Positions 20,991 through 56,380 of a stretch of 64,000 nt of DNA are shown one piece after another. Origin of the DNA: Thiomicrorhabdus marina. Lineage in GTDB: Bacteria > Pseudomonadota > Gammaproteobacteria > Thiomicrospirales > Thiomicrospiraceae. A program made the translations under genes and the position numbers. The stretch lies in contig NZ_JAGETV010000010.1 of NCBI RefSeq assembly GCF_017571465.1, positions 1 to 64,000 on the forward strand. Direction: 5' to 3'. The stretch's first letter is position 1. Each line of letters opens with the position of its first letter. Under the pieces are notes generated by a model. The model had not been told where the DNA came from. It searched no databases and worked only from the letters and a program-made list of their open reading frames with translations.

Positions 20991-21020
20991 ATGGATAGCT
21001 TTTTGGTAAGGAAACTCACT

Positions 21021-22388
21021 TTGTCTTCACTTTGGGCACAGAGTCTTAAAATTCTCGAAGATGATCTAAACGATCAGCAGTTCCATACATGGATTTTGCC
21101 GTTACGCGCGATTGAAGATCAAGACACAATCCGTCTTATCGCGCCTTCTACTTTTATCTTGGACTGGGTAAACAAACGCCTGATGGAAAATGTCCGTCAA
21201 GCGGTAGCACGTGTGGCACCGATTAATACGCCGGAAGTATTGATTGAAATGGGCGATTACGCCATGAATGACGTCGAGGAAGATTCCCAACCGACCATTC
21301 CACAACCTTTGAAAGAGAAAAGTAAGCCTACGCCGCAAAAACCTAAGACTGGCGCATCGGGCATTCAGCACAACCTAAATACCAATTTCACTTTCGATAC
21401 CTTTGTACAAGGTAAAGCTAACCAACTAGCCGCTGCAGCTGCACGTCAAGTCGCAGAAAACCCAGGCGGTAGCTACAACCCGTTCTTTATTTACGGCGGT
21501 GTTGGCTTGGGTAAAACACACTTAATGCACGCCATTGGTAATCAGCTTTTGGCTGACAATCCACAAGCACGCGTCGTTTACCTGCACTCGGAACGTTTTG
21601 TACAAGATATGGTAAACGCGCTACGTCACAACAAGATTGATGAATTTAAGCGCTTTTACCGTTCTTTAGATGCGCTTTTAATCGATGATATTCAATTTTT
21701 TGCTAATAAAGAGCAGTCGCAAGAAGAGTTTTTCCATACCTTTAATACACTACTGGAAGGCAATAAGCAGGTTATCTTGACTTCCGACCGCTTCCCGAAA
21801 GAAGTGGAAGGTCTAGAAGACCGTCTGAAATCGCGTTTTGGTTGGGGTTTAACGATTGCCGTTGAACCACCTGAGTTTGAAATGCGTGTCGCCATCTTGC
21901 TGAAAAAGGCGTCTGAATACAACATTACTCTGAGCGAAGAAGTGGCATTTTTTATCGCCAAACGTCTACGTGGGAATGTTCGTGATTTGGAAGGCGCGCT
22001 AAAACGTGTTGATGCATATGCGCAGTTCAGCAATAGCCGCGGCATTACTGTCGAAACAGTAAAAGAAGCGCTAAAAGATTTGCTGGCTCTGCAACAGAAG
22101 ATGGTTACACTAGATAACATCCAGAAAACGGTGGCTGACTACTACAAGATTCGCGTTGCCGACCTGCATTCCAAACGTCGTTCGCGTAATGTTGCCCGCC
22201 CACGCCAAATGGCAATGGCGATTGCAAAAGAATTGACCAATCACAGCTTGCCGGAAATCGGCGATGCATTTGGTGGTCGCGACCATACAACGGTATTGCA
22301 TGCGGTTCGCAAGGTTAAAGAACTGCGTGAAACCGAGCACCAACTTGACGACGACTACAACAGTTTAATTCGAATTATTACCAATTAA
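21021..22388 (+). CDS. dnaA: Chromosomal replication initiator protein DnaA
   Basis: DnaA binds oriC boxes and melts the origin. From the TTG at 21021 the protein is 455 aa and begins [15 protein letters not shown], the family's usual N-terminus; AAGGAA at 21008-21013 lies seven bases before this TTG. An in-frame ATG at 20991 lacks such a site and would add ten unlikely residues. Domain I is followed by a Pro/Lys-rich linker, the AAA+ domain (GGVGLGKTH Walker [10 protein letters not shown] Walker B) and the C-terminal DNA-binding helix-turn-helix with the DnaA signature ([13 protein letters not shown]). It is the first gene of the plus-strand replication cluster. Confidence 0.97.
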
Positions 22389-22418: not shown

Positions 22419-23528
22419 ATGAAAATCACCATTACCCGTGAAAATCTTTTAAAAGTTCTACAAACGGTTGGCAGCGTTGTTGAAAAACGACACACCATGC
22501 CGATTTTGAGTAACCTGCTGTTTGTGGTCAACAACAATATGCTGACAGTGACTGCATCGGATTCGGAAATCGAAACCCGTGCACAAACCGAGTTAGAATC
22601 TTGCGATTTAGAGCATTTCAGCATTACATTACCAGCGTTGAAATTAATCAATATCGTACGTTCTCTTCCAGACGGATTAACCGTGGTAATGGATTTTGAA
22701 GAAACTCGCTGCGCACTTTCAGCTGGTCGTTCGCGCTTCAAGCTGTCAACGCTTCCGGCGGAAAACTTCCCTATTATCGACTTGACGCAAAGCGATCTAA
22801 GCTTCTCGCTATCGCAGAACCAGCTAAAACAACTTATCAGCCACTCAAGCTTCGCGATGGCGAGCCAAGACGTACGTTTCTACCTAAATGGTATGTTGTT
22901 CGACATCAGCAACCAAACTTTGCGAGTGGTTGCCACCGATGGACATCGCCTCTCAACTTGCTCAACCGAGTTAGCAATTCAAGGATTACCGGCAACGCAA
23001 GCGATTCTACCGCGTAAAGGGGTAATGGAATTGTCTAAGCTGATTACTGATGAAGACAATTTGGTACAGATTTCATTGGCGAAAAATTACCTAACTGTTG
23101 AACTGGATTCAACCGTCTTCACTTGTAAATTGGTAGATGGACGTTTCCCGGACTACCGCCGAGTTATTCCACAAAACAACGACCAAGTAGTACAGACTGA
23201 CCGTGAAATGCTACGTAGCCTGCTACAACGTGCATCGATTCTATCAAATGATAAATTCAAAGGTATTCGCTTAAACTTGAGCCAAAACCTATTGGCGGTT
23301 AGCGCATCCAACAGCGAACAAGATGAATCACACGAAGACATGGCTATCGACTATAGCGGTGCAGAGATGGAAATCGGCTTTAACGTTAACTATATTCTTG
23401 ACGTCTTAAGCTCGATCCAAGACGACTGCGTAACGCTCCTATTTAAAGACGCCAACAGCAGCTGTTTGGTATCTGCAAATAACAATAACTGCTCTTGCCA
23501 GCACGTTATTATGCCAATGCGTCTATAG
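22419..23528 (+). CDS. dnaN: DNA polymerase III beta sliding clamp
   Basis: This 369-aa clamp encircles DNA and tethers polymerase III. The three tandem clamp domains are recognisable from the N-terminal MKITITRENLLKVLQTVGSVVEKRHTMPILSN segment (given here only to mark the start of domain 1) to the C-terminal IMPMRL, which supplies the hydrophobic-pocket Met-Pro-Met-Arg. It starts 30 bp after dnaA and ends at a strong bidirectional terminator, so the dnaA-dnaN pair is transcriptionally separated from recF, which is unusual. Confidence 0.97.
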   Translation: MKITITRENLLKVLQTVGSVVEKRHTMPILSNLLFVVNNNMLTVTASDSEIETRAQTELESCDLEHFSITLPALKLINIVRSLPDGLTVVMDFEETRCALSAGRSRFKLSTLPAENFPIIDLTQSDLSFSLSQNQLKQLISHSSFAMASQDVRFYLNGMLFDISNQTLRVVATDGHRLSTCSTELAIQGLPATQAILPRKGVMELSKLITDEDNLVQISLAKNYLTVELDSTVFTCKLVDGRFPDYRRVIPQNNDQVVQTDREMLRSLLQRASILSNDKFKGIRLNLSQNLLAVSASNSEQDESHEDMAIDYSGAEMEIGFNVNYILDVLSSIQDDCVTLLFKDANSSCLVSANNNNCSCQHVIMPMRL

Positions 23529-23550
23529 AGGCCACCACCACTAACGACCT

Positions 23551-23595
23551 AAAAAGGAGTGCTTGCTTTAATTTAAAAGGCAAGCACTCCTTTTT
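23551..23595. terminator. Strong bidirectional terminator after dnaN
   Basis: A perfect 16-bp stem (23551-23566 with 23580-23595) begins with five As and ends with five Ts, so it works on both strands. It closes the dnaA-dnaN transcript and isolates the cation-efflux gene downstream. Confidence 0.9.
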
Positions 23596-23603
23596 GTTTT
23601 AAT

Positions 23604-23650
23604 AAATGAGAATGATTTGCACTCAAGTCTATTTTCTATATAGAATAGAT
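23604..23650 (+). promoter_or_regulatory. Fur-box-like site and dyad before the cation-efflux gene
   Basis: AAATGAGAATGATTTGCACT (23604-23623) resembles a Fur box (AATGAGAATGATT core). Just downstream TCTATT-TT-CTATATAG-AATAGA (about 23628-23649) forms a dyad and includes plausible -10 sequence. The pairing of a Fur-like site with a metal-efflux gene fits iron homeostasis, but this is a motif judgement only. Confidence 0.4.
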
Positions 23651-23685
23651 TCTTCGCTCATACTACAACTTATGGTGGTCAATAT

Positions 23686-24588
23686 ATGACTAATCCACAA
23701 CTCGTTAGAATTGCGACAATCGCATCAGTAAGCGTTGCCATAACGCTTCTGGTTATTAAATTCTATGCTTGGCTACAAACTGACTCGGTCAGTATTCTTG
23801 CCTCTACGCTAGACTCAGCATTCGATATTATTGCCAGCTTAATGATTATGATGGCCGTCTATATCGCGCAAATCCCTGCAGACAAAGAACACCGCTTCGG
23901 ACACGGCAAAGCCGAACCGCTAGCCGCTCTGGCACAAAGCGTTTTTATTGCCGGTTCGGCAGTGTACTTAATGGTCTATTCCCTAGAACGTATTTGGACA
24001 CAAGCTGAAGTTGAGAAGGTCAATATCGGCTTAGCGGTAATGATACTGTCGCTAGTATTGACCACCGGATTAGTGATCTTCCAAAAATACGTGGTACGTA
24101 AAACCGAATCAACGGCCATTGCCGCCGACGCCTTGCACTATCTCTCCGATGTTTTAGCGACGCTACTGATTATTGTCAGCCTATTTTTTGTCTCTTTAAA
24201 CTGGATAGATCCTCTGCTGGCAATCTTGATTGCTGTCTGGATTCTACACAGCGCATACCAAATCGCTAAAGATTCACTTAATCAACTATTGGATCGTGAA
24301 CTCAGTGATGAAATGCGTGCTGAAATCAGTGAAATCATCCTGTCCACACCGCAAGTACTCGGCTTTAACGATCTTCGTAGCTATCAATCCGGTCCAAACC
24401 GTTTTGTACAGCTCGACTTGGAGCTTGACGATAAACTTACCCTGCTAGCGGCACACGATATTGCCGAACAGGTCACTAGCCGACTAAAAACACGTTTTGA
24501 AAACTTGGATGTCATTGTTCATCAAGAACCGGCCAGCCTAAGACATGACCACAGTCATCACACCTGGGGCAAAGAATACAACGAATGA
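23686..24588 (+). CDS. fieF: Cation diffusion facilitator, FieF-like
   Basis: This 300-aa inner-membrane divalent-cation/proton antiporter has about six TM segments and a C-terminal cytoplasmic domain. Metal-site motifs are LDSAFDI in TM2 (DxxxD-type) and ALHYLSD in TM5 (HxxxD), the tetrahedral site of YiiP/FieF, which exports Fe2+ and Zn2+. The His-rich tail RHDHSHHTWGKE is typical of metal binding. It is inserted between dnaN and recF, normally adjacent, and overlaps recF by 4 bp (ATGA), so recF translation depends on this transcript. Confidence 0.88.
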   Translation: MTNPQLVRIATIASVSVAITLLVIKFYAWLQTDSVSILASTLDSAFDIIASLMIMMAVYIAQIPADKEHRFGHGKAEPLAALAQSVFIAGSAVYLMVYSLERIWTQAEVEKVNIGLAVMILSLVLTTGLVIFQKYVVRKTESTAIAADALHYLSDVLATLLIIVSLFFVSLNWIDPLLAILIAVWILHSAYQIAKDSLNQLLDRELSDEMRAEISEIILSTPQVLGFNDLRSYQSGPNRFVQLDLELDDKLTLLAAHDIAEQVTSRLKTRFENLDVIVHQEPASLRHDHSHHTWGKEYNE

Positions 24589-25685
24589 CGCAACTGAACC
24601 GATTACAGCTGCAAGCTTTCCGAAATGCCGAGAACCTTAGTTGCCGACTCAGCTCTGGGATGAATCTATTTATCGGCGATAATGCCGCCGGAAAAACTTC
24701 CTTGATTGAGGCCATCTGGCTGTTAGCAACCGGCCGCTCTTTTCGCAGTCGACAAATCACTCATTTAATTCAGCATCAACATACCGAAACAGTGATTTTT
24801 GCTGAATTGCAGAGCCATCTAGAACCTCAGCAAACCTATCGTATCGGCATGCAGCGTTCTGTTCAGAAAATGACTTTACGATTGAATGGCGAAAACGTTC
24901 GTGCGCAAAGTGAAATTGCTCAGCAATTACCGGTGCAACTACTTACACCGGAAAGCCACCGACTATTGGAAGAAGGCCCAAAAGCGCGCCGCCAGTTTAT
25001 CGATTGGGGCTGTTTTTATCAGTTTCCGGAATTCATCAGCCTATGGCGTCAACATAAACGCCTATTAAAGCAGCGTAATCATGCCTTAAAAAAGCGTTTA
25101 CCGGCAATGCAAATTCAACTCTGGGATGCACAATTGGTCGAGACGAGTCTGCAAATCGACCAGCTTCGCCGTCAGTATCTGGAATTTTTAATGCCATTTA
25201 TCGAGCAATACTGTCAAGCGTTGATGCCGGAACTAGAACAAGCGATTAATAGCTCCTATCGAGCCGGTTGGCCTAAATCGGCGGAAAGTTTACAGCAGCT
25301 AATGCACGACAATCTCCATAACGACATACAGAAAGGCCATACTCAATACGGCGCACATCGCGCTGATGTACGCTTTAAATTCGGTACTTTTGAAGCTTTA
25401 CAAGCGTTATCTCGCGGCCAACAAAAACTGTTTGTCTGTGCCTTGATGTTGGCGCAAGCGCAGTTGCATCAACAGGTCACCAACGAGCCGTCAATCATGC
25501 TGATTGATGACCTACCGGCAGAACTGGATCACTTTCATCGAGACAAGCTGATGCAGCTACTTAGTGATCTGAAAATTCAGCATATTGTCACCAGCACTGC
25601 GCAGGACTTAATTCCGATTACCAACCCGAAAAATGCGCAAGCGTGGCAGATTGAAAACGGCGTATTAAAGCCGTTACAAATCTAG
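24585..25685 (+). CDS. recF: DNA replication and repair protein RecF
   Basis: This is a 366-aa SMC-like ATPase that loads RecA at single-strand gaps with RecO and RecR. Walker A is GDNAAGKT (31-38); the C-terminal signature LSRGQQKLFVCAL and Walker B MLIDDLPAELD are intact. Its ATG overlaps the stop of the cation-efflux gene (ATGA), so the two are translationally coupled. The order dnaN-fieF-recF is unusual. Confidence 0.95.
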   Translation: MTQLNRLQLQAFRNAENLSCRLSSGMNLFIGDNAAGKTSLIEAIWLLATGRSFRSRQITHLIQHQHTETVIFAELQSHLEPQQTYRIGMQRSVQKMTLRLNGENVRAQSEIAQQLPVQLLTPESHRLLEEGPKARRQFIDWGCFYQFPEFISLWRQHKRLLKQRNHALKKRLPAMQIQLWDAQLVETSLQIDQLRRQYLEFLMPFIEQYCQALMPELEQAINSSYRAGWPKSAESLQQLMHDNLHNDIQKGHTQYGAHRADVRFKFGTFEALQALSRGQQKLFVCALMLAQAQLHQQVTNEPSIMLIDDLPAELDHFHRDKLMQLLSDLKIQHIVTSTAQDLIPITNPKNAQAWQIENGVLKPLQI

Positions 25686-25754: not shown

Positions 25755-26129
25755 ATGGAACAAAACGTCCCGCTAACCAAACCAGAAGCGCCACAAACAC
25801 CAATTTCAACAACCGTCCCGACCATTATTTATATTCTTTTTCTGGCTAATATCGTCATGCAGTTCACCGGTTTAATCGGCCTGATTATGGCTTATGTCAA
25901 TAAGGGCGACGACAACTACCTAGAAAGCCATTATCAGTTCCAGATACGCACCTTCTGGATTGGCCTGTTATTCGGCCTGCTAGGCTTCTTTACCTTAGCC
26001 ATCGCCATCGGCTGGCTAATCCTATTTGTGGTCTTGGTTTGGTGGGTGATTCGCTGCGCTGTCGGTTTGAAATACCTCGGCAAACGCCAACCGGTTCCAA
26101 ACCCGACTAGCTGGGGAACCGGTAGTTAA
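25755..26129 (+). CDS. DUF4870-like small membrane protein
   Basis: This 124-aa protein has three strongly hydrophobic segments (about residues 22-46, 70-90 and 92-112) and a Pro/Thr-rich cytoplasmic N-terminus. The segment ESHYQFQIRTFWIGLLFG and the final GLKYLGKRQPVPNP fit the pattern of short DUF4870-type membrane proteins. Function is unknown. It has its own start with AAGGAAAAGG upstream and is followed by a terminator, so it ends the fieF-recF transcript. Confidence 0.65.
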   Translation: MEQNVPLTKPEAPQTPISTTVPTIIYILFLANIVMQFTGLIGLIMAYVNKGDDNYLESHYQFQIRTFWIGLLFGLLGFFTLAIAIGWLILFVVLVWWVIRCAVGLKYLGKRQPVPNPTSWGTGS

Positions 26130-26406: not shown

Positions 26407-28863
<2,457 letters not shown>

Positions 28864-51667: not shown

Positions 51668-53257
51668 TCACTTGAATAAGTTTAAACGGCGCAGAATCAA
51701 TAATCCAACCACGCCCATAAATAAGAGTAGCAGTGACGGTACTGCGGCACGCTCATACAGAGCTTCTGCACTTAATTCAAAAATGCGAATCGCCAAAGTG
51801 TCCCAGCCAAACGGACGCAAAATATAGGTTGCCGGTAGCTCTTTTGAAACATCAAGAAAGACCAAAACAGCCGCCGTCATTAAGCCCGCTTTTAATAGCG
51901 GTAGATAGATCTCCCATACTAAGCGCTTTGGACCTGCCCCAAGACCGCGAGCAGCCTCAATAATCGATGGTTTAATTGTCTGGAAACGACTCTGAATAGG
52001 CCCGTAAGCGACGGCTAAAAAACGTACCGAATAGGCCAATAGCAACCCAAATAAGCCGCCAATAAACCATTGGGTAGATAGCCATTGATTCAACCAAGCC
52101 ATGGCACCGAGAATCCCCATCGCCAACACAACCCCCGGCAACGCATAGCCCATACGCGCGACACCCATTAAGCTCATCAACGGTTTAGGCAAACGGCGTG
52201 AGAATTCCAAACTGTTTAATAACAAGGCGACAACAATCGTAATCAACACAGCAATAACACTGAGCAACAAAGTATTACCGAACCACTGCCAGTAACGCTC
52301 GTCCCACTCTTCGGTAATAACGCTATAGGCCCATACTGAAAGTTGCATAGTCGGCAGTAATAACACTGCCAGCAAGACCAATAAAACAAATCCAAACGCC
52401 AAGATTTTATATCTTTTCGAAGGGTTAAAAGGAGGAGTATCAAGGCGCGAAGTCTGTACATAACCTCGACGACCCCGACTAAGCTTCTCGACACTGAAGG
52501 TCAATAGCGCAATCAGCATTAAAATCGTTGCTAACTGAGCCGCCGTTGCCAAAGAGCGGAAATCTTCCCAAGCACTATAAATCGCTAGCGTTAGAGTATT
52601 GTAATTAAACAAAGCGACTGTGCCGAAATCGGCCAGGGTTTCCATTAGTGCCAGACTGATACCGGCCACAATCGCCGGACGAGCTAAAGGTAAGCTAACT
52701 TTCCAGAAAACACCCCAGGAAGAATAGCCCAAACTACGAGCACTTTCGATCATGGTAATCGATTGATTCGCAAATGCAGTTCGAGCGAGTAGATAGACGT
52801 AAGGATAAAATACTAAGGTTAAAATCAGCGCTGGACCTAGAACACCTTCCCTAATATCCATATACGGCAAACCCAAGACCTGTGTAAACTGCTGAAAAGC
52901 CCCGCCATAATCAAATGCCCCCAGGACCACAAATGCCAACACATAGGCTGGCATTGCAAACGGTAACAGTAGCAACCAACTGAACAATTTACGACCAGGA
53001 AACTCAATCATTACCACTAACCAAGCCAAACTTACACCCAATAAAAAAGTGCCGATGCCGACACCCAATAGCAAGAGTGTAGTATTGATGACCAGTTCAG
53101 AAAGAATCGTTTTTACAAAATGCTGCCAGATATCGGTATCAACACTGTTCCAACTGAATAGCAAATTCAGTGTCGGCAACAAAAGCAAAAACACCAGTGT
53201 CACTAAAAACAGCGACACCGGTGCAAGTTTTAATAGATGAATAAATTGTCTGTTCAA
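51668..53257 (-). CDS. fbpB: Ferric iron ABC transporter permease
   Basis: This 529-aa permease has two homologous membrane halves with about twelve TM segments in all. Each half has an EAA loop (IESARSLGYSSWGVFWKVSLPLARPA and IEAARGLGAGPKRLVWEIYLPLLKAG), where the ATPase docks. The two-half fused form is that of FbpB/HitB/SfuB Fe(3+) importers. It lies 64 bp after the binding-protein gene and 19 bp before the 5' fragment of hslR. Its stop lies very close to the right island boundary. Confidence 0.9.
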   Translation of the reverse strand: MNRQFIHLLKLAPVSLFLVTLVFLLLLPTLNLLFSWNSVDTDIWQHFVKTILSELVINTTLLLLGVGIGTFLLGVSLAWLVVMIEFPGRKLFSWLLLLPFAMPAYVLAFVVLGAFDYGGAFQQFTQVLGLPYMDIREGVLGPALILTLVFYPYVYLLARTAFANQSITMIESARSLGYSSWGVFWKVSLPLARPAIVAGISLALMETLADFGTVALFNYNTLTLAIYSAWEDFRSLATAAQLATILMLIALLTFSVEKLSRGRRGYVQTSRLDTPPFNPSKRYKILAFGFVLLVLLAVLLLPTMQLSVWAYSVITEEWDERYWQWFGNTLLLSVIAVLITIVVALLLNSLEFSRRLPKPLMSLMGVARMGYALPGVVLAMGILGAMAWLNQWLSTQWFIGGLFGLLLAYSVRFLAVAYGPIQSRFQTIKPSIIEAARGLGAGPKRLVWEIYLPLLKAGLMTAAVLVFLDVSKELPATYILRPFGWDTLAIRIFELSAEALYERAAVPSLLLLFMGVVGLLILRRLNLFK

Positions 53258-53321
53258 AATAGTTTAAGAAAATTTTTGAGAAACGACATACTGAAGCCAA
53301 TAACGTCGTTTTATTTCATTC

Positions 53322-54377
53322 CTAGCGGTAGCCAACTCTCTGCATTAGCTTAACTGCCTGCTGCTGATATTTTACAACTTCATTCAAACTTAAGGAATCG
53401 GCTTTAAATTCTCCCCAAGAAGCAACCAGCTCGGAAGGCTTAATGGTTGGATTGGCAGGATATTCGTTATTCCACTCAGCATAAATTTCTTGTGCTTGGC
53501 CGTCACTTAGCCATTCAATAAACTGCTTCGCTTTTTGCACTTGATCGGCATGTTTAATTACCCCTGCACCAGAAACATTAATATGGGTACCGGTTGTATC
53601 CTGATCAGGCCAGAATAGTTTTAGCGGTACGTCCGGCTGTTGTTTTACCAAACCGCCAAAATAGTAACTGTTTACAATTCCCACATCACAACCACCGCCA
53701 ATAATTGCCTGCATTACTTGCGAATCCTTAGCCTGAGGCTTCATTGCCAGATTATTCACCCAACCTTTTACAATTTGTTCGGCTTTTTCTTCACCATGAT
53801 GTGCAATTAAAGAGGCGACTAAAGACTTGTTATAAACTTTCTTTGAGGTGCGTAAACATAGCTCATTCTTCCATTTTGGGTCAGCCAAGTCCGCATAACC
53901 TTTTAGGTCTGAAGGAATCAGTTTATTCGTGTTATAAATCAAGGTTCGAGCACGAATCGATAATGCCGTCCAAAGCCCCGCGCCATCGCGTAAGTTCGCC
54001 GGAATATTTTTTTCAATCAACGTTGAATTTAAAGGTTGGAATAGACCTTCTTGTGCCGCATAGCCTAAATTCCCGGCATCCGCCAACATCAAAACATCTG
54101 CTTGAGTCTCAGCGCCTTCCGCCTTTAGACGTTCAATCAGCGCCCCTTCCTTACCGGTATATAACGTAATTTTAACGCCGGTTAGTTTGGTATAAGCATC
54201 CGTTAACGGCTTAAGTAAATGCTCTTTGCGGGAACTGTAAACCACTAAATCACTTTCAGCCGCTTGCACACCTTGCACTGCTGAGATCGCTACCAATGGC
54301 ATCGCTAGGGAAAAACTAATGATTAATGAAAAAAATCTTAATTGTTTCAGTGCAGCAAACGCTTTGAGGAGGTTCAT
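53322..54377 (-). CDS. fbpA: Ferric iron-binding periplasmic protein
   Basis: This 351-aa binding protein has a signal peptide (hydrophobic core FSLIISFSLAMPLVAI, cleavage near VQA-A). The mature start LVVYSSRKEHLLKPL and the IVNSYYFGG segment with its Tyr pair are the Fe3+-binding pattern of FbpA/FutA proteins. It captures ferric iron in the periplasm and passes it to the FbpB permease. Gene order is fbpC, fbpA, fbpB on the minus strand, with the Fur-like boxes before fbpC. Confidence 0.92.
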   Translation of the reverse strand: MNLLKAFAALKQLRFFSLIISFSLAMPLVAISAVQGVQAAESDLVVYSSRKEHLLKPLTDAYTKLTGVKITLYTGKEGALIERLKAEGAETQADVLMLADAGNLGYAAQEGLFQPLNSTLIEKNIPANLRDGAGLWTALSIRARTLIYNTNKLIPSDLKGYADLADPKWKNELCLRTSKKVYNKSLVASLIAHHGEEKAEQIVKGWVNNLAMKPQAKDSQVMQAIIGGGCDVGIVNSYYFGGLVKQQPDVPLKLFWPDQDTTGTHINVSGAGVIKHADQVQKAKQFIEWLSDGQAQEIYAEWNNEYPANPTIKPSELVASWGEFKADSLSLNEVVKYQQQAVKLMQRVGYR

Positions 54378-54429
54378 AAGCTTCCTTCGCTAAATAATAT
54401 AAATCAGATACAAGGATTAAGAGATAAGG

Positions 54430-55089
54430 TTACGCAGCGCTTGAATAGTCTAAAAGTTGACCATTTTTCAACATTGCCATACGGTCACACAAAACACCAG
54501 CTTCATCCGGTGAGTGAGTCACAACAAGAGCGGAAAGGTTTTCGGCTTTAAGCCATTCGCGTAATGTCTTCGCCAGTCGTAAAGCTAAAGGGCGATCCAG
54601 ATTCGAGAAAGGTTCATCAAACAAAATTAAATCCGGCTTTGGCGCCATTGCACGGGCAATCGCCACTCGTTGCTGTTGACCGCCAGATAGCTCATGCGGA
54701 TAACGGTCTAGTAGATCATGGATGCCCATCATCTGCGTCAATTGGTTACAGCGAATGCGTTTTTCTGCTTTAGAAAGATGTTTAATACCAAAAAGAATAT
54801 TTTGCTCAACACTTAAGTGAGGAAACAAAGCATAATCCTGAAAAACCATCGTAATACCTCGCTGCTCTGGAGCCGTACATGAATGGCTACAGCTTAAACA
54901 ACGTCCGGCAACAATCACTTCCCCTTGGTTTAGGCGCTGAAAACCGGCAATGGCACGCAACAAAGTGGTTTTACCACTACCGCTTTCGCCCATCAAACCA
55001 ACAATTTCACCCGCTTCCAATTGGAGATCACAGGTATTTAATACCGGCATCTTGTCATGGATTACTGTGACTTTCTCAAGTGCTAACAT
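54430..55089 (-). CDS. fbpC: Ferric iron ABC transporter ATP-binding protein
   Basis: This ATPase has Walker A GESGSGKT, Q-loop, signature LSGGQQQR, Walker B LILFDEPF and H-loop VVTHS, all intact. At 219 aa it is shorter than typical FbpC (about 350 aa), lacking the C-terminal TOBE regulatory domain, so it is a short form. It is the first gene of the transporter operon. Confidence 0.88.
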   Translation of the reverse strand: MLALEKVTVIHDKMPVLNTCDLQLEAGEIVGLMGESGSGKTTLLRAIAGFQRLNQGEVIVAGRCLSCSHSCTAPEQRGITMVFQDYALFPHLSVEQNILFGIKHLSKAEKRIRCNQLTQMMGIHDLLDRYPHELSGGQQQRVAIARAMAPKPDLILFDEPFSNLDRPLALRLAKTLREWLKAENLSALVVTHSPDEAGVLCDRMAMLKNGQLLDYSSAA

Positions 55090-55405
55090 TTGCTTTATCC
55101 AAATTCATATCTTAATGATAATAATTCACAATTCGAATATTAGATTAAATAAGAATTGTTTTCAATATCAATTAAGGATAATCATCATTTATTTTTTTGC
55201 ATTAAAACTAAATGATAATAGTTTTTATTAATCATCTATTGATAGTGCCTCTTAATTGAAATAAAAACCTAGCAAAAAAGTCAGTTTTTAGCCTAAAAGG
55301 CTGATTTTTAGAGACTATGGATAAAGTTTGGAGAAAAGCAATTTTGAGAAGTGAGCGCTAGAAGTGCCTTACTGCGAGACACTTCACGATAGGCTTTGTA
55401 AGCGA
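55090..55405 (-). promoter_or_regulatory. fbp promoter region with Fur-like boxes; gene-free
   Basis: This AT-rich 316-bp stretch contains three Fur-like sequences: AATGATAATAATT (55114-55126), GGATAATCATCATTTAT (55176-55192) and AAATGATAATAG...TTATT (55210-55229). They precede the ferric-iron transporter operon, supporting repression by Fe-Fur. The distal half is probably the 3' flank of hemF, with an AGCC/GGCT hairpin near 55290-55302. Confidence 0.6.

Positions 55406-56380
<975 letters not shown>

Follow-up and report, generated by a model that had tools for sequence, protein, structure and literature searches.

In E. coli, the genes dnaA, dnaN, recF and gyrB belong to an operon whose promoters are described as spread through it (PMC10287930). 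The stretch of DNA analysed here, 64,000 nucleotides from the sulfur-oxidising bacterium Thiomicrorhabdus marina and called the window in what follows, carries these replication and repair genes as well, arranged and oriented alike, but differs from the E. coli operon by the presence of a transporter gene and of a strong terminator between dnaN and recF, and by a 124-aa ORF between recF and gyrB. Since the transporter gene and the terminator separate the two genes, recF would go with fieF and not with dnaN. The transporter itself is to be compared with E. coli FieF (YiiP), a zinc/iron exporter: both belong to the cation diffusion facilitator (CDF) family and the residues of sites A and B are aligned, whereas the window protein has a changed site C, NCBIfam scores below the cut-offs and a conserved HHxWG tail. 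The third term of comparison is a group of Thiomicrorhabdus feoA promoters (L201, L202 and L210), with which a Fur-like box ahead of fieF has its 15-base core TGAGAATNATTTGCA in common. In a non-exhaustive search of the literature, covering titles and abstract openings, no account of the dnaN-fieF-recF order or of a control of recF by Fur was found. The features of the locus are as follows.

20991 to 22388, + strand: dnaA (TIGR00362, 593 bits, cut-off 343.9)
22419 to 23528, + strand: dnaN, beta clamp (TIGR00663, 334 bits, cut-off 137.65)
23550 to 23596, + strand: intrinsic terminator 3' of dnaA-dnaN (20-pair stem, 7-nt loop, T-run; dG -28.3 kcal/mol)
23604 to 23624, + strand: Fur-like box AAATGAGAATGATTTGCACTC (feoA-trained matrix, 13.5 bits; 1/2000 shuffles)
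23617 to 23622, + strand: -35-like TTGCAC within the Fur-like box, 18 nt from the -10 (reading of the sequence)
23641 to 23646, + strand: -10-like TAGAAT, 45 nt 5' of fieF (position recurrent in genus spacers)
23686 to 24588, + strand: fieF, FieF-like cation diffusion facilitator of 300 aa (Pfam Cation_efflux and ZT_dimer; TIGR01297)
24585 to 25685, + strand: recF (TIGR00611, 348.7 bits, cut-off 172)
25755 to 26129, + strand: membrane-like ORF of 124 aa between recF and gyrB, family-less
26431 to 28863, + strand: gyrB (named by reading; tblastn matches of 83-92% in those loci of genus relatives that reach gyrB)

The identities of dnaA, dnaN, fieF and recF come from Pfam and NCBIfam profile searches and, together with the coordinates, they agree with an earlier note on this DNA, which had placed a fieF insertion between dnaN and recF. 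The 4-bp overlap of fieF and recF that it had reported is also present, the stop of the former and the start of the latter sharing an ATGA at 24585-24588. Thus, recF does not directly adjoin dnaN as in the classical dnaA-dnaN-recF operon, fieF and the terminator intervening. The tblastn match of gyrB is fragmented in the locus L050. Searches of Pfam and NCBIfam at E 0.001 assign the 124-aa ORF to no family; by tblastn, 25 of the 30 loci of genus relatives have a match to it between recF and gyrB, and one of the five misses is a locus ending inside recF.

The product of fieF is a CDF protein by its scores against PF01545 (147.3, cut-off 26.6), PF16916 (73.5, cut-off 26.7) and TIGR01297 (209.4, cut-off 82.35), and it matches the structure of E. 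coli FieF (2qfi) with an E value of 4.5e-71. We call it FieF-like because its scores against the FieF equivalog models NF050169 (331.2) and NF007064 (309.1) stay under the respective cut-offs of 420 and 447. In the alignment to 2qfi, D43, D47, H151 and D155 of site A (D-D-H-D) and D66, H69 and H73 of site B (D-H-H) correspond to the residues of E. coli FieF, and none of them varies among the ten aligned genus members. The binuclear cytoplasmic site C is incomplete: H257 and H279 are retained, and N228, D244 and E281 stand in place of H, H and D in all ten. The combination of a partly replaced site C and an intact site A suggests an altered metal sensing.

The examination of gene order in relatives that the earlier note had proposed was run on 62 genomes of the family, of which all except G048 gave a recF match. 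It covered 31 readable recF loci of Thiomicrorhabdus, the window included, and 30 loci from six other family genera (the Hydrogenovibrio and Thiomicrospira groups are labelled g3 and g6 below). The order dnaN-fieF-recF is found in 23 of the 31 genus loci, recF following dnaN directly in the other eight, and no CDF match occurs in the stretches fetched for the 30 loci of the other genera. The distance from fieF to recF lies between -4 and +20 nt in all 23 (exactly -4 in three), and that from dnaN to fieF ranges from 18 to 424 nt. Among the matches listed for the 80 relatives (named genomes) kept in the FieF alignment, in a scan where some contigs are short, a single one has dnaN and recF alongside fieF: L220, from Thiomicrorhabdus sp. 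ZW0627. Elsewhere in the eight genus genomes that lack the insertion (seven of them 79-94% complete, and G028 99%), no FieF ortholog was found, the best matches being to a distant paralog (E 5e-9 to 4e-12), with none at all in G039. In a tree of DnaA, DnaN, RecF and GyrB, these eight genomes are nested within the genus as G028, G035 and a six-member clade, the node that splits G035 from this clade having a support of 0.28 and the deep nodes within Thiomicrorhabdus 0.26-0.29. The simplest history has one gain and two or three losses, and the gene order would be an ancestral trait of the genus with later losses rather than the oddity of a single strain. Since the FieF tree departs from the species tree in some details and places two g2 copies within the inserted group, a transfer of fieF is possible. 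The idea that fieF is the cargo of a mobile element was rejected: no mobile gene was seen at the junction in the window, the insertion is genus-wide, and FieF orthologs occupy other sites in other genera. In the g3 and g6 loci of which the neighbours were read (L144, L146, L181, L183 and L187), fieF lies behind a cca-like gene, named by reading, and in the one g2 locus read (L124) it does not.

Other changes affect the same region in the family. Two g3 genomes have a different large ORF at the dnaN-recF junction (L065, 2549-4165, 538 aa; L066, 4595-6217, 540 aa), so that this junction took inserts more than once. In the four g6 loci L072, L073, L074 and L076, dnaA is opposite to recF in orientation and dnaN has no match in the fetched stretch, which points to a rearrangement of the replication cluster there. 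In five of the six members of the fieF-less clade (L042, L047, L058, L061 and L062), a run of 8-10 C, possibly variable in length, follows a hairpin just 5' of recF. With its dnaN-fieF-recF order, Thiomicrorhabdus adds a variant to the plasticity already known for the dnaA-dnaN-recF-gyrB region.

The strong terminator that had been claimed to close dnaA-dnaN is found in the window at 23550-23596, where a stable, G+C-bearing hairpin is followed by TTTTAATAAA, and it argues against the cotranscription of dnaN and recF. If a hairpin of -12 kcal/mol or lower with 4 or more T among the 8 bases of its tail is counted as terminator-like, one separates dnaN from fieF in eight of the 23 genomes. In five others the spacer, of no more than 18-52 nt, has no terminator and offers scant space for a promoter of its own, and the signal is weaker or unclear in the remaining ten. 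In the case of the five short spacers, fieF-recF would probably still be carried by the dnaN transcript, recF remaining coupled to dnaN. A riboswitch or another known RNA in the window spacer was rejected, the matches listed between 20500 and 26500 (E up to 1) being all far below the gathering scores; nine of these ten sub-threshold matches overlap the terminator region (families of the microRNA and sRNA types) and one lies in dnaA. No known RNA family reached the gathering level in the loci of 13 relatives. Directly 3' of dnaN, a reading of L043, L048, L049 and L051-L054 reveals a low-copy dispersed repeat bearing a palindrome; a DNA search with L051:5440-5577 matched the spacer itself in five of these seven genomes and gave 1-7 matches per genome in 17 of the 32 genus genomes, with none in the window genome.

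The promoter that the earlier note had attributed to fieF is borne out by the recurrence of its -10. A -10-like hexamer (5 or 6 matches to TATAAT) occurs at -43 to -47 from fieF in nine of the 18 spacers of at least 80 nt and is absent from the other nine, whereas shuffled spacers give a mean of 0.39 and a maximum of 4, none of 2000 reaching nine. As the interval was picked after inspection of the promoter scan, and as L034 and L035 are close relatives, the shuffle figure overstates the independence of these cases, though the effect is large. On the strength of this recurrence, we consider a separate fieF-recF promoter well supported. The window hexamers themselves are weak, with 3/6 matches for TTGCAC and 5/6 for TAGAAT; the promoter script favours TTTGCA, one base earlier than TTGCAC, with 4/6.

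The Fur-like box was evaluated with a matrix derived from 30 sites located upstream of feoA in relatives (22 upstream regions), with the window genome excluded and L150, on the wrong strand, dropped. The first FeoA searches returned mostly loci of FeoA-domain proteins of about 220-300 aa; the short feoA genes fetched were 20 plus L170 and L177, a part of the short feoA genes listed. By this independent matrix, the fieF box matches the Fur boxes of the genus with 13.5 bits, a score reached by one in 2000 dinucleotide shuffles of the spacer, and with its core identical in three feoA upstreams the box claimed by the earlier note stands as a sequence. A -10-like hexamer 17-18 nt after TTGCA[TC] is, by reading, another trait common to fieF and these feoA promoters, which differ by the possession of a second, stronger box downstream (26.7 versus 20.7 bits with an earlier version of the matrix), fieF having a single box. 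In the window's own genome, a site sharing AATGAGAATGAT precedes ExbB/ExbD-like ORFs (named by reading), and a Fur protein is encoded (167.8, curated cut-off 146). A control of the box by Zur was rejected: the box bears no apparent resemblance to the Zur consensus, and the Zur-like protein of the genome scores 115.2, below the cut-off of 167. We also discarded a first genome-wide Fur pattern (33 + 33 matches; reversed control, 16 + 14), because it had been built from the fieF site itself and its top rank was circular.

Within the window, the fieF box is the fifth best match of the matrix. The three best (19.3, 20.5 and 24.8 bits) lie at 55113-55230, before an ABC importer cluster (51668-55089, - strand) with a solute-binding protein, and would be a sensible positive control for the matrix, the substrate of the importer being putative; the fourth, at 53659, falls inside the reading frame of the importer's binding protein. 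This cluster with its three strong boxes adjoins hemF (55406-56347). The 249,817 bases of the dnaA-recF loci of 30 genus relatives contain no site of 13.5 bits or more, and none of the other 22 fieF-bearing genus spacers has a box of that score ahead of the orthologous gene. The best of these spacers reach 9.8 bits in L044 (shuffle frequency 0.0025), 6.2 in L036 (0.018) and 4.6 in L035 (0.0205), and that of the nearest relative, L033, whose fieF is 84% identical, scores -7.6 bits. The fieF box also ranks below the genuine feoA sites listed for the relatives, of which the lowest had 14.6 bits with an earlier version of the matrix. Among the species examined, the box is seen in the window species alone. 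At another locus, an 18.4-bit Fur-like box precedes fieF in two closely related g3 genomes, G010 and G015 (L188 and L187), that is in two of 21 fieF loci, a further one of the 22 scanned being too short for use; that of G015 (L187) lies at about 1538-1558, between the cca-like gene and fieF. Taken with the window box, these two cases indicate that Fur-like boxes before fieF are sporadic in the family. In L187, a CCAGGCCTGG hairpin with its T-run stands 3' of the box, just before fieF, where a leader attenuation or a terminator of cca is possible.

The earlier note had deduced from these elements that the synthesis of RecF depends on a metal-responsive transcript. This claim holds in part: the box, the promoter, the terminator and the overlap speak for it, while the box is not conserved, even in the nearest relative, and five of the 23 spacers are short. 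A box without conservation would make a metal-responsive RecF at most a species-level trait, and the control of recF by iron is plausible as a species-level hypothesis. The gene order is real and conserved; the regulatory twist would be that of one species.

The explanation that best survives beside this reading is a plain drift of gene order, in which fieF-recF would be transcribed from a constitutive promoter or by readthrough from dnaN, the Fur-like box having no notable effect on RecF. It would account for a box confined to the window species, for L033-L036, where the -10 position is kept and a comparable box is absent, and for the five genomes that seem to retain fieF in the dnaN transcript. 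It sits less easily with a score far above chance and without equal in the loci of the relatives, and with a box that overlaps the -35 and shares its core with three feoA upstreams, so that we hold this drift for possible but somewhat unlikely.

A second explanation would have recF transcribed mainly from a promoter inside fieF, in the manner of the promoters distributed through dnaA-dnaN-recF-gyrB in E. coli (PMC10287930). A dominant promoter of this kind, against which the earlier note had cautioned, was looked for in the sequence, and no conserved candidate emerged. fieF does contain two promoter-like sites with 9 of 12 matches, at 23735 and 24173, but the region has 12 such sites for a shuffle mean of 10.0 (sd 3.0), and neither of the two keeps both hexamers in any of L033-L036, although L033 has preserved the -10 of the site at 23735 and L034 the -35 of that at 24173. 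Codon conservation in fieF is strongest not in the 3' part but in an island at 23863-23910, within the HRFGHGK coding motif, at a level reached by 84 of 2000 shuffles. No strong site conserved in position was found 5' of recF in the relatives: the candidates just ahead of the gene are weak, and the positions that recur, near -252 and -128, belong to the coding sequence of fieF. An internal promoter as the main source of recF transcripts thus appears quite improbable. Since a terminator precedes fieF, the two genes overlap and no internal promoter is visible, we infer that recF probably shares the fieF promoter and that most RecF would come from the fieF-recF transcript.

The position of the box over the -35, as for the upper box of the three feoA upstreams, makes repression by iron-loaded Fur the default expectation, and iron is predicted to repress fieF-recF. 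Such a sign does not suit an iron exporter and is the reverse of a response to iron excess. The pump may serve to export a different metal, one that comes in once iron uptake is active, its site A being D-D-H-D as in E. coli FieF; the useful trigger may be the oxidative loss of Fur; the box may be the site of an activator; or it may do little. An activation of fieF-recF by Fur at high iron, as in an iron-excess and DNA-protection operon comparable to the B. subtilis ATPase PfeT, would suit an exporter, PfeT being iron-induced with Fur as the sensor (PMC9993123) and the regulators of iron-exporting CDF pumps being called unidentified (PMC7762939), but the box lies on the -35 and not upstream of it, in the same layout as in the feoA upstreams, and we find this very unlikely indeed.

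The model we propose combines the ancestral insertion, the bicistronic unit, the separate promoter and the species-level Fur box. An ancestor of Thiomicrorhabdus would have gained a gene for a FieF-type exporter at the dnaN-recF junction, and fieF and recF would since then have been a bicistronic unit, with recF either translationally coupled to fieF or placed close behind it. An intrinsic terminator would isolate this unit from dnaA-dnaN in the window species and in part of the genus, where it would be transcribed from a sigma-70-type promoter of its own, about 45 nt 5' of fieF. In the window species alone among those examined, a Fur box would have arisen over the -35 of this promoter, at the place that the upper box occupies in some feoA promoters of the genus. 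Iron-loaded Fur would repress fieF-recF, and iron limitation or the oxidative inactivation of Fur would raise the level of both proteins. We regard this model, taken as a whole, as standing about evenly between right and wrong. It is a more tentative proposal that iron sets the dosage of RecF through Fur, the loss of Fur function by iron limitation, peroxide or nitric oxide inducing together the exporter and the RecF gap-repair loader, apart from the clamp DnaN, an interaction partner of RecF.

In conclusion, the regulators of iron-exporting CDF genes still awaited identification according to a 2020 review (PMC7762939), and the credible Fur box ahead of a FieF-like gene is therefore a concrete lead. 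The induction of the SOS response by iron limitation in Caulobacter and the link between FurA and SSB in Anabaena, the first reported and the second cited in PMC6120978, offer a possible rationale for a RecF linked to iron. A species-level regulatory twist at a conserved gene order merits a simple experiment. More generally, the separation of dnaN and recF in this genus, with a terminator in some cases and a probable Fur site in one, amounts to a natural experiment on the importance of the cotranscription of these two genes.
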